Shown: positions 4,285 through 8,367 of the stretch, piece after piece
Numbering within the stretch: position 1 is the first letter of the stretch
Layout: each line of letters opens with the position of its first letter
Origin: Alphaproteobacteria bacterium
GTDB lineage: Bacteria; Pseudomonadota; Alphaproteobacteria; Puniceispirillales; Puniceispirillaceae
DNA length: 64,000 nucleotides
Assembly: GCA_016779005.1 (NCBI GenBank)
Contig: JADHOL010000005.1
Coordinates: 1 to 64,000, forward strand
Direction of reading: 5' to 3'
Translations under genes and position numbers: made by a program
The notes under the pieces: generated by a model
The model's database searches: none
What the model was told of the DNA's origin: nothing
What the model saw: only the letters and a program-made list of their open reading frames with translations

Positions 4285-5892
4285 TTAATCACGTTTGAAA
4301 AAATCATTTCCTTTATCATCCATAACGATAAAAGCAGGGAAATTTTCAACCTCTATCTTCCAGATTGCCTCCATCCCTAGCTCTGGATATTCTAGCACTT
4401 CAATATGTTTGATAGAATCTAGTGCAAGCTTGGCGGCAACACCGCCAATAGAACCCAAATAAAAACCGCCATGTTTTGCACATGCTTGTCTGACCGCAGC
4501 GCTTCTGTTCCCCTTTGCAAGCATAACCATAGAGCCACCCGCGGCCTGAAACCTATCTACATATGAATCCATTCTGCCAGCAGTAGTAGGGCCAAACGAA
4601 CCAGATGCCATACCATCAGGTGTTTTGGCAGGGCCTGCATAATAAATTGGGTGGTTTTTTACATAATCTGGCAAGCTTCCTGTTTCTTCGAGTACTTCTA
4701 GTAGCTTTGCATGGGCAATATCACGCGCAACAATCATTGTACCTGTCAGATTGACCCTGGTTTTTATGGGATGCTTAGATAATTTTTTCAGGATATTTTC
4801 CATGGGTTGTTGTAAATCAACGGCCACTACTGGCGTATCGCTGGTTTCTTCTATGGTTGGAAGAAACCGTGATGGATCTGTTTCAAGTTTCTCAAGAAAC
4901 ATACCTTGTGCATTAATTTTTGCACGTATCTGGCGGTCTGCGGAGCAAGACACACCAATTCCGATGGGGCAGGACGCACCATGTCTTGGCAGGCGTATAA
5001 CTCTAACGTCATGGCAGAAATATTTGCCGCCAAATTGCGCACCAATTCCCATTTCGCGCGTCATCTCCAGAATAATCTGCTCCCACTCTAAATCACGCCA
5101 TCCATGGCCTGTTATGTCCCCTGTTGTGGGCAGATTATCTAAATCCTTAGTAGAAGCCGCTTTAACTGTTTTAAGCGTGGTTTCAGCAGAAGTGCCGCCA
5201 ATGACGACAGCTAAGTGATAGGGTGGGCAAGCAGCCGTCCCCAAATTTATAATAGCATCTGATAAAAACGCCCGTAACCCCTCCGGGTTAAGTACAGCCT
5301 TTGTTTGTTGATATAAATAAGATTTATTGGCAGATCCCCCGCCTTTTTGCACAAAGGTAAATTTATACTCATTTCCAGAACCGCTATAGATATCTATCTG
5401 GGCTGGAAGATTATTACCTGTGTTTTTTTCTTCAAACATTGAAAGCGGGGCAAGCTGGGAGTATCTAAGATTACTGCTTTGATAGGTGTCAAATATTCCT
5501 TTTGAGAGCGCTTTGGCATCACTGCCGCCCGTTATTACTCTCTCTCCTTTTACTGCCGAGATGATTGCTGTGCCTGTGTCCTGACACATAGGAAGCACTC
5601 TGTCTGCAGAAACAACCGCGTTTTTTAGCATTTCCAGCGCAACAAAATGATCATTTTCACTTGCGTGCTTATCATCCAGAATATCTCTGAGCTGTTGTAG
5701 ATGGGATGGTCTTAATAAATGACTGACATCTTCAAATGCTTTTTGAGCCAGAAAACTTAACCCTTCTGGGTCAATTTTAAGATATGTCTGCCCCTCCATT
5801 GTGAATGTATTCACATAGTCTGTGGTGATATTTCTATATTCAGTATTATCTTCACCGACTGGAAGTAACGGGGTATATGTAAATTCGGTCAT
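4285..5892 (-). CDS. fumA: Class I (iron-sulfur) fumarate hydratase
   Basis: Converts fumarate to L-malate in the TCA cycle using a [4Fe-4S] cluster. Counting from the upstream TTG, the cluster cysteines are C106 (MCQDTGT), C225 (TAACPPYH) and C319 ([12 protein letters not shown]), matching the spacing in E. coli FumA. The N-terminal lyase domain and C-terminal beta domain are both present at about 535 residues. A TTG at 5901 overlaps the sspB stop, but I favour the ATG at 5892. It follows sspB directly and is probably translationally coupled. The class I enzyme is oxygen-sensitive, unlike FumC. Confidence 0.92.
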
Positions 5893-5897
5893 TTTAC

Positions 5898-6416
5898 TCA
5901 AGATGGGTTAGAGGGCTGTTTTCGAAATGCATCAAGTGATACAACATCTGCTGTGTCACTTTCATCAGTATCGCTAGAATCTGTTTTATTTTTATCTTCT
6001 ATTGAAGTGATTAACTCAGATAATTCAGGAGAGGATGCCTCATCATTTGCGCTGAACTGAAGGCCAAAACCAACCGATGGATCTGTAAAATGGGTGACAG
6101 CTGCAAACGGGATAACAAGGCTTTGTTTCACGCCCGAAAATGATAGGGTTACGCCAAAAAGCGCATCAGTGACAACCAGATCCCAATATTGATGCTGCAA
6201 CACAATGGTCATTTCTTCTGGATTAATCTCTCTCAAGCTTGAATCCATTTCAACCCCTGAGAATTGTGTCTTAAAGCTGATATAAAAATGGGCTTCGTCT
6301 GGTAGACCCTCTCTCTCAGCTATTTTCAGTGCGCTCTTAACCACATCTCGCAATGCTTCTTCTACTAGAATTTCATAGTCAATGCCTGCTGGCACATTGC
6401 CTGAATCATCGCTCAT
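5898..6416 (-). CDS. sspB: ClpXP adaptor SspB, alphaproteobacterial type
   Basis: SspB binds the ssrA degradation tag and tethers tagged proteins to ClpXP. The sequence matches the alpha family: [18 protein letters not shown] near the start, [25 protein letters not shown] and [19 protein letters not shown]. It then has an acidic, Ser/Asp-rich linker and a conserved VVSLDAFRK tail, the ClpX-docking motif. A GTG at 6425 also opens the frame, but the AGGGGA Shine-Dalgarno sequence would abut it. With the ATG at 6416 the spacing is 9 bases, so that start is preferred. It lies just downstream of ssrA on the same strand. Confidence 0.9.
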
Positions 6417-6426
6417 TAATTTCACT

Positions 6427-6448
6427 CCCCTTGATGTAGTGTGAGGGG
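6427..6448 (-). promoter_or_regulatory. Hairpin covering the sspB ribosome binding site
   Basis: On the minus strand CCCCT (6448-6444) can pair with AGGGG (6431-6427) across a 12-base loop. AGGGG is the core of the sspB Shine-Dalgarno sequence. The same segment lies at or near the 3' boundary of the ssrA precursor, so it may be a processing element, an sspB translation control, or both. There is no T-run after it, so it is not a convincing terminator. Confidence 0.35.
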
Positions 6449-6815
6449 CTTTCTGTTGCCAGGTGCACCCTCGACCCCGCCTGCCAGAGCTCGATCCGAC
6501 AGGGCTTAATTTTGATCACTCAAACTGCATTACGCAGCCATTGCAACCGGAGCAGTGTTGTCATTTGCAACTACTACAATGACCCGATAACGGCGGATAT
6601 CATACCGAGCGAAAATACCATCTTTACTACATGCGTCGATCCTATTTCGCCCCCAAAAAAATGCGTCATACCGAAACAAACCTTGATATGATGAGCAATA
6701 ACGTTAGTATCATCAGTGCTCTTTTAGCTTAATGGTGGAGGCGCCGGGTACCGCCCCCGGGTCCGCTCTGCTTATTCCATAATACGTTTATCGCCATAGT
6801 CGACTTGCATCGACA
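6430..6815 (-). ncRNA. ssrA: Circularly permuted two-piece tmRNA (ssrA)
   Basis: tmRNA rescues stalled ribosomes and adds a degradation tag. Reading the minus strand, the acceptor piece comes first. It has a T-arm-like hairpin in CCCGGGGGCGGTACCCGG and ends GCCTCCACCA, with the encoded CCA at 6735-6733. After an intervening segment the coding piece begins at about 6654 with GGGGGCGAAATAGGATCGAC, the usual tmRNA 5' signature. GGGGGC pairs with GCCUCC of the acceptor, giving the G3-U pair that alanyl-tRNA synthetase recognises. The tag frame is at 6568-6530. The permuted order is typical of Alphaproteobacteria. Outer ends of the precursor and of the coding piece are approximate. Confidence 0.9.
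6530..6568 (-). other. tmRNA proteolysis tag reading frame
   Basis: The resume codon GCA (6568-6566) opens a frame encoding ANDNTAPVAMAA and ending in TAA (6532-6530). With the alanine carried by tmRNA the full tag would be AANDNTAPVAMAA. The AND(N) start and hydrophobic MAA end fit recognition by SspB and ClpX respectively. The bases before the resume codon (GTAGTT) resemble the usual upstream determinant. Confidence 0.92.
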
Positions 6816-6820
6816 CTTAA

Positions 6821-6849
6821 ATTATAGGATGAAATGAGACAGGTTGAAA
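6821..6849 (-). promoter_or_regulatory. Putative ssrA promoter
   Basis: A perfect minus-strand TATAAT lies at 6826-6821, which would start transcription near 6814, just ahead of the acceptor piece. A weak -35 candidate (TTCAAC or TTTCAA) lies 16-17 bases upstream. thyA begins at 6924 on the other strand, so this spacer holds the divergent control region for both. Confidence 0.45.
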
Positions 6850-6923
6850 GATTTATCTTAACTTTGTTTGCAACTAGGCAATAAAGTAGGAAGAATAGCG
6901 GTAATCAGGAGTTATTATTAATC

Positions 6924-7721
6924 ATGCAACAATATAAGGATTTACTCTCTCATGTTTTAGCGCATGGCACCCAGCGCGGAGATAGAACTGGAACAGGAAC
7001 CTTATCGGTTTTTGGTTGGCAAATGCGGTTTAACTTAGCAGATGGATTCCCGCTACTAACTACAAAAAAACTGCATACGCGCTCTATCATTCATGAGCTT
7101 ATCTGGTTTATCCGTGGTGAGACAAATATTGCCTATTTGCGTGATAACAAGGTTCGTATTTGGGATGAATGGGCAGATGAGAGTGGCGATCTTGGCCCTG
7201 TTTACGGAAAACAATGGCGCTCTTGGGTCTCCCCATATGAAGGCCAAACCATTGACCAGCTCAATGATGTTGTACAACAAATCAAAACCAATCCAGAATC
7301 AAGGCGCCTAATCGTAAGTGCCTGGAACCCAGCAGATATTCCGCAAATGGCCCTGCCACCATGTCACTGCTTGTTTCAGTTCTATGTTGCAGACGGCAAA
7401 CTATCCTGCCAGCTCTATCAGAGAAGCGCTGATATATTTTTAGGAGTGCCGTTTAATATCGCTTCTTACGCATTGCTAACGCACATGGTTGCACATGTTT
7501 GCGATTTGCAAGTAGGTGATTTTGTTCATTCTTTTGGCGATGCACATCTATATCTGAATCATATCGAGCAGGCAAAATTACAACTACAAAGAGTGCCAAC
7601 CAAGCTGCCAAATTTAGTGTTAAATGCGCCCCCAAATACGCTTGAGGCGTTTGAGTTCGAGCATATTCAGATAAATGATTACATCGCAGCACCCACCATT
7701 AAAGCACCAATTTCAGTTTGA
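6924..7721 (+). CDS. thyA: Thymidylate synthase ThyA
   Basis: Methylates dUMP to dTMP using methylene-tetrahydrofolate, producing dihydrofolate. The 265-residue length matches the E. coli enzyme (264). The nucleophile is C147 in ALPPCHC, and the folate/dUMP motif [19 protein letters not shown] follows. N-terminal [11 protein letters not shown] and [10 protein letters not shown] are typical. An AGGAG lies 12 bases before the ATG. The next gene, folA, regenerates the tetrahydrofolate ThyA consumes. Confidence 0.95.
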
Positions 7722-7812: not shown

Positions 7813-8367
7813 ATGACACATAGCGAAAATACCAATAACCGATTTCAGATGGTTTGTGTGGTTGCTATGGCAGATAATGGAGTTATCGGGGATGGGAAGG
7901 GTCTTATCTGGCATCTGCCTGGGGACTTGCCCCGTGTTAAAAAAATCACTATGGGATGCCCATTAATTATGGGAAGACGAACCTGGGCTTCTATTGGAAA
8001 AGCATTGCCAGGCCGCGCATCGATTGTGTTAACACGTGATACCAGCTGGACAGCAGATGGCGCTATTGTAGCACATAGCCTGAGTGATGCTATCATGCAT
8101 GGCAAGAGCTGGCTTGCAAAACAGGAGAGCCAAGAGACGAGATTGATATTATTTGGCGGCGGCGAAATTTATAGTCTTGGGATAGATTTATGCCAAGAAA
8201 TTGAATTAACACGAGTGAATGCAACTCCCTCAAGCGGGACTAAATTCCCTAATATAAATTGGCAAGAATGGGATGAATTAAATGCAACCAGTCACAAGGC
8301 TGGGGCAGATCATCCGAGTTTTAGTTACCATCACTACATTCATAAGACGCAAAACAGATATGTTTAA
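7813..8367 (+). CDS. folA: Dihydrofolate reductase
   Basis: Reduces dihydrofolate to tetrahydrofolate with NADPH. It shows the active-site region GDGKGLIWHLPGDLPRVK, the MGRRTWASIGKALPGR motif and the C-terminal FGGGEIY nucleotide-binding segment. I chose the ATG at 7813 because GGGGGA lies just before it; the frame also stays open from a TTG at 7798. About 184 residues, slightly longer than typical because of a short N-terminal extension. It follows thyA by about 90 bases. Confidence 0.92.
   Translation: MTHSENTNNRFQMVCVVAMADNGVIGDGKGLIWHLPGDLPRVKKITMGCPLIMGRRTWASIGKALPGRASIVLTRDTSWTADGAIVAHSLSDAIMHGKSWLAKQESQETRLILFGGGEIYSLGIDLCQEIELTRVNATPSSGTKFPNINWQEWDELNATSHKAGADHPSFSYHHYIHKTQNRYV

Follow-up and report, generated by a model that had tools for sequence, protein, structure and literature searches.

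The ssrA-sspB Locus

We analyzed a stretch of alphaproteobacterial DNA of 64,000 nucleotides (hereafter the window), on the minus strand of which the gene for tmRNA, ssrA, lies directly before sspB, the gene for a proteolysis adaptor. The tmRNA tags proteins stalled on the ribosome, and SspB binds the ANDN half of that tag and hands the tagged protein to ClpXP. The initial annotation had correctly recognized ssrA, although its upper limit of 6815 was wrong, as the match to the model RF01849 (alpha_tmRNA), which includes the promoter, extends from 6853 to 6442. This match is to a full-length permuted ssrA, covering model positions 1–355 with 285.5 bits against a gathering threshold of 50 (E = 3.6e-82); ARAGORN called no tmRNA at the locus. 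The permuted order is evident from the RF01849 alignment, in which the CCA of the acceptor (6733) is upstream of the tag reading frame (6568–6530) on the minus strand. The tRNA-like acceptor piece occupies 6733–6815, its 5′ end being approximate and placed by analogy with Sinorhizobium meliloti, and is followed by a segment (6655–6732) whose removal during maturation is presumed from the two-piece model (PMC3985003). The mRNA-like coding piece (6442–6654, 213 nt) was delimited by the RF01849 and RF04321 alignments, and contains the tag frame (6530–6568), which by translation encodes ANDNTAPVAMAA followed by a stop codon. Maturation of tmRNA into two RNA pieces is described for S. meliloti (PMC2873474), with a mapped acceptor piece of 82 nt and a coding piece of 214 nt, with which the 213 nt of the window agree. 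In having the acceptor before the coding piece, a tag that starts with ANDN and ends with AA, and a full-length model match, the window’s tmRNA resembles the Caulobacter-type two-piece tmRNA represented by RF01849. It differs in that the matches in the window’s genus span 406–413 nt versus 355 model positions, the excess being mostly in the intervening segment.

The adjacent gene, sspB (5898–6416, minus strand), encodes an alphaproteobacterial SspB adaptor of 172 residues, which matched PF04386 with 141 bits against a curated cut-off of 27 (E = 4.1e-41). Its open reading frame spans 5898–6425 from a GTG, with an alternative ATG start at 6416, and the latter is the more likely start because it is preceded by the Shine-Dalgarno-like sequence AAGGGGAG at 6432–6425. 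Comparison of the folded domain to PDB structures with phmmer gave matches to 2QAS (5.7e-32) and 2QAZ (1.3e-31), which we take to be Caulobacter SspB, and to 2NYS (1.6e-29) from Agrobacterium. No defining difference was seen between these SspB-alpha proteins and that of the window, which is predicted to bind the tag. By eye, its C-terminal tail resembles the tails VVTLDAFRKK and VISLDSFRKK of two other alphaproteobacterial loci (L164 and L162, respectively), a type of tail that is presumably the ClpX-binding motif.

A class I fumarase gene (4285–5892, minus strand; PF05681 and PF05683), whose ATG is 5 nt past the sspB stop codon, is probably the third gene of the unit. On the other side of ssrA, thyA (6924–7721; PF00303) diverges on the plus strand and is followed by folA, encoding dihydrofolate reductase (7813–8367, plus strand; PF00186), both of which are conserved neighbors. 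The block thyA-ssrA-sspB-fumarase, with the fumarase gene downstream of sspB, recurs across the window’s order. The locus is the SAR116-type version of folA-thyA diverging from ssrA-sspB-fumarase, a gene order that is widespread in Alphaproteobacteria. The slot after sspB is filled by a class I or a class II fumarase, unrelated enzymes that catalyze the same reaction, varying by alphaproteobacterium (window, 4285–5892; L062, L066, L068, L074, L080, L085).

Conservation of the Gene Order

To compare positions, both families (tmRNA and SspB) were searched in 61 relatives and in 290 genomes of the class. Both genes were found in 46 of the 61 relatives, and in 45 of those ssrA was immediately upstream of sspB on the same strand; in the 46th the two matches were split between contigs and lay at the contig ends or close to them. 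The class sample comprised the best 150 matches per search, and 105 genomes were among the matches listed in both searches. Among these listed matches, ssrA was <400 bp upstream of sspB (tmRNA end to SspB domain start) in 81 of the 105 genomes, the same order and strand were retained at 400–6000 bp in 13, and the remainder had the genes far apart (5), on opposite strands (1) or on different contigs (5). Hence adjacency of ssrA and sspB is the usual alphaproteobacterial arrangement and mostly ordinary, and the conservation of the pair across order and class excludes chance adjacency. The genes that intervene in the 13 of 105 class genomes among the matches listed (L162, L163, L164 and ten others) include, as judged by eye, genes for an aminotransferase and a LysR-like regulator (both in L163) and an open reading frame resembling a protein kinase (L164); the region downstream of ssrA is possibly a hot spot for insertions.

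These results affirm the initial annotation in describing the genes as adjacent, co-directional and tightly spaced, as both are on the minus strand with a 25-nt gap. Its further statement that alphaproteobacterial sspB often lies near thyA/folA with no ssrA in between found no support, given that the two genes are adjacent in 45 of the 46 relatives that have both and, among the matches listed, in 81 of 105 class genomes. A survey of related genomes had been set beforehand as a test of whether the adjacency was unique to this assembly, and it is not, since the pair recurs in the order and the class. No printed statement of ssrA-sspB adjacency was found in the literature searched, whose reach excluded the most relevant older papers, and we claim no priority. 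The closest likeness is to smpB-ssrA neighborhoods, in which a gene for a trans-translation protein is beside ssrA and for some clusters of which operon structure is reported (PMC4131195). They differ from the window in the partner of ssrA, which here is the proteolysis adaptor gene sspB rather than smpB, and the word sspB has 0 occurrences in the text of PMC4131195.

The Junction between ssrA and sspB

In the window, the spacer from the 3′ end of the tmRNA model to the sspB ATG is 25 nt (6417–6441, minus strand) and includes the Shine-Dalgarno-like AAGGGGAG (6432–6425). The two genes share a strand, are separated by a short gap and are conserved as a pair. We analyzed 119 adjacent junctions, to which the order contributed 40 of its 45 and the remainder of the class sample all of its 79; start codons were set by a simple score, and single spacers may be in error, as with the internal TTG starts chosen for G045 and G057. 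The spacer was 22–25 nt in all eight genomes of the window’s genus versus a median of 88 nt in the 111 others, among which only G130 (24 nt), G074 (27 nt) and G243 (31 nt) were similarly short. Genus-specific compaction of the junction is thus the distinctive feature of the locus, with the qualification that the genus is one lineage whose eight genomes count as approximately one event.

A rival reading is a switch, in which the 3′ arm of the tmRNA (CCCCUC) would pair with the ribosome-binding site of sspB (AGGGG), thereby connecting tmRNA folding to sspB translation. CCCCT can indeed pair with AGGGG across the window’s junction. However, the pairing is not kept in the genus, as G003 has AAAGGAG and G007 AATGGGAG at this position, and the predicted fold favors the tmRNA stem with an unremarkable energy (z = −1.22). 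We consider a switch very improbable, and sequestration of the ribosome-binding site by the tmRNA 3′ arm was rejected on the grounds that the pairing is not conserved across the genus.

Promoter-like Sites

A promoter-like site for ssrA, TTTCAA (6849–6844) and TATAAT (6826–6821) separated by 17 nt, was located at 6821–6849 on the minus strand by a scan of the genus and is the putative ssrA promoter. The hexamer is at a fixed offset, being TATAAT in seven of the eight genus genomes and TATAGT in the eighth (G008), and the site lies inside RF01849, toward the 5′ end of the model, where the consensus is UAUAUU. On the ssrA-to-sspB strand, TATAAT at the ssrA start was the best or joint-best promoter-like site in seven of the eight genus genomes. 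In G007 an internal site matching 9 of 12 positions ties with the ssrA site, and in G008 an internal 9-of-12 site outscores TATAGT. An additional 8-of-12 site, CTGGCA, with its second hexamer in the spacer, occurs in five of the eight genus genomes, the window’s excluded, and a start from it would land at or beyond the ribosome-binding site. Since the gap is only 22–25 nt, a usable sspB promoter would need to sit inside ssrA. As there is no room for a promoter in that gap, sspB mRNA in the genus most likely arises by read-through from the ssrA promoter, a possibility raised in the initial annotation, and ssrA and sspB are likely to be co-transcribed there. A counterpoint is that ssrA may contain a weak promoter, for which G007 and G008 have internal candidate sites.

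Termination after ssrA

A scan of the minus strand from 5800 to 7000 gave no promoter-like or terminator-like site, a result of low sensitivity, as even the site at the ssrA start went undetected. The 7-bp CCCC/GGGG hairpin at 6427–6448 has a T-tail on the plus strand only. Among the 119 spacers, 12 had a terminator-like hairpin and T-run, versus a mean of 2.55 in shuffled sequences (maximum 5 in 20 rounds), and eight of the 12 belong to two sister families (f2 and f4). Members of these families have a 10–11 bp hairpin and T-run at the tmRNA 3′ end, followed by a promoter-like site of the TTGAAA-N18-TATAAT type before sspB, and their junctions appear to show ssrA and sspB uncoupled. In the eight genomes of the window’s genus, the spacer contains neither a hairpin of this type nor a separate sspB promoter-like site. 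A separate promoter for sspB, named in the initial annotation as a sign against read-through, is thus visible in the sequence of members of f2 and f4 but not in that of the window.

As a control, we examined 33 ssrA genes that are not directly before sspB: 13 are separated from it by an insert, 10 are distant from it or on other contigs, and 10 are in genomes that lack it. Three of these 33 have a separate terminator, versus 14 of the 119 adjacent ssrA genes (p = 1.0). Consequently, a missing terminator is uninformative, being equally usual after ssrA genes that have no sspB next to them. The initial annotation had noted the lack of a terminator between the genes; the observation is true for the window, yet it is weak evidence of coupling (3/33 versus 14/119) and we dropped it as such.

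The T-rich stretch that follows the terminal helix of the tmRNA, in the adjacent and non-adjacent groups alike, may itself stop the polymerase. Most alphaproteobacteria have such a U-tract, but it is weak in the window’s genus. The T-score after the helix was 2.62 there versus 3.49 in the order’s 22 other genomes that lack the f2/f4 hairpin, and the mean energy of the tmRNA 3′ helix was −14.4 versus −16.6 kcal/mol; the p values (0.006 and 0.002) overstate the support, as the genus is a single lineage. The weak U-tract supports read-through in the genus. A broader proposition is that the adjacency has been selected class-wide, with read-through from ssrA setting the level of SspB, and termination relaxed wherever sspB follows. 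In the first sample, T-runs of at least 3 were indeed less frequent in adjacent (38/79) than in non-adjacent genomes (19/23; p = 0.004), and the same held at the family level (0.50 versus 0.88; p = 0.002). However, a second sample of 93 further genomes from five families, drawn from up to 30 loci per search (a 94th, whose flank was short, was left out), did not replicate this difference (42/69 versus 17/24; p = 0.47). Class-wide selection is accordingly improbable, and we do not claim a weaker U-tract wherever sspB follows. Spacer length was also compared with T-score in the other 79 genomes with adjacency; the correlation (Spearman 0.23, p = 0.04), for which averaging by family gave p = 0.08, was left unused.

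One alternative is that the adjacency reflects nothing more than inherited gene order, with transcription stopping at the tmRNA 3′ helix and sspB expressed from a weak promoter in ssrA or the intervening segment. This would fit the helix and T-rich stretch being present after alphaproteobacterial ssrA regardless of whether sspB is next, the members of the sister families with a clear terminator and their own promoter-like site, and the internal sites at 9 of 12 in G007 and G008. Set against this are the weak U-tract in the window’s genus, the gap with no room for a promoter, and the fact that no internal site equal to the ssrA site is common to the genus. On balance, we regard inherited order alone as unlikely.

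Co-occurrence of Tag and Adaptor

The window’s tag, ANDNTAPVAMAA, was identical in seven of the 119 junction genomes, and 117 of the 119 genomes with adjacent sspB have a tag that begins with ANDN. In the second sample, ANDN was found in 69 of 69 adjacent and 23 of 24 non-adjacent genomes. The two exceptions among the 119 are the genomes of one family (f18; L099 = G074 and L131 = G243), which have sspB 27–31 nt after ssrA and long tags that start with ANSN, not ANDN; the specificity of their SspB may have changed.

A different pattern was found in ten genomes that have no detectable SspB and a tmRNA above the cut-off, which span four families and so represent approximately four events. Only one of the ten (G081) has ANDN, and the tags of the other nine start with AKSD, AKRD, ANDD (two), ANES (four) or ANQN. 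One genome without detectable SspB (L175, G160) has a long tag, ANQNNAFVVACNDNAPIAIAA, with an internal CNDN. In the order to which G316 belongs (L082, L301–L309), SspB was found in none of the ten genomes searched, four of which are shared with the SspB-less set, and none of their tags has ANDN (four ANDD, one ANND and five AKSD or AKRD). As some genomes are incomplete, one missing SspB match is weak evidence, but absence across the whole order is not. Within that order, thyA, ssrA and a class II fumarase gene keep their places and sspB is missing between ssrA and fumarase, from which we infer that the order lost sspB from this position and changed its tag. That ANDN is kept with SspB and mostly lost without it fits the role of the tag’s first half as the SspB site, and points to joint evolution of tag and adaptor as a single unit. 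Separately, a divergent tmRNA-like match of ~79–86 bits was observed in five genomes of family f40 (G317, G425, G429, G420, G411), in the first three of which it is a second copy.

Discussion

The genes at this locus, their order, spacing and conservation, and the co-occurrence of tag and adaptor are direct observations. The explanation that best accommodates them, to which we give a probability of roughly 0.6, is a conserved gene order with a junction of ~25 nt in the genus, across which transcription from the ssrA promoter reads through into sspB and the fumarase gene, followed by processing. Based on the established roles of the families, the permuted ssrA would give rise to a two-piece tmRNA, by which stalled proteins would be tagged with (A)ANDNTAPVAMAA, and SspB would bind the ANDN half of that tag for delivery of the protein to ClpXP. 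The polymerase that starts at the ssrA promoter most likely continues into sspB and fumarase, and from the resulting long transcript RNases would release the tmRNA pieces and an sspB message. The released message would have a short leader, starting at or just before the ribosome-binding site, from which it would be translated. A counterpoint to read-through is that the tmRNA 3′ helix or Rho could stop the polymerase.

A more far-reaching proposal joins the two lines of evidence, and we put it forward tentatively, as a possibility with the odds somewhat against it. In the window’s genus, sspB would have neither promoter nor leader of its own, and its sole message would be the one released in the maturation of pre-tmRNA; at the same time, tag and adaptor would constitute one evolutionary unit, such that loss of sspB from its place between ssrA and fumarase is accompanied by change in the half of the tag that SspB binds, the C-terminal protease end being kept. 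If this is correct, every tmRNA made would also yield adaptor message, and the supply of the tag would be tied to that of the adaptor at the level of RNA in a marine genus. The sister lineages with a terminator and promoter between the genes would provide a natural comparison, and the order that lacks SspB and retains the same neighbors would provide a natural experiment on the purpose of the ANDN part of the tag.
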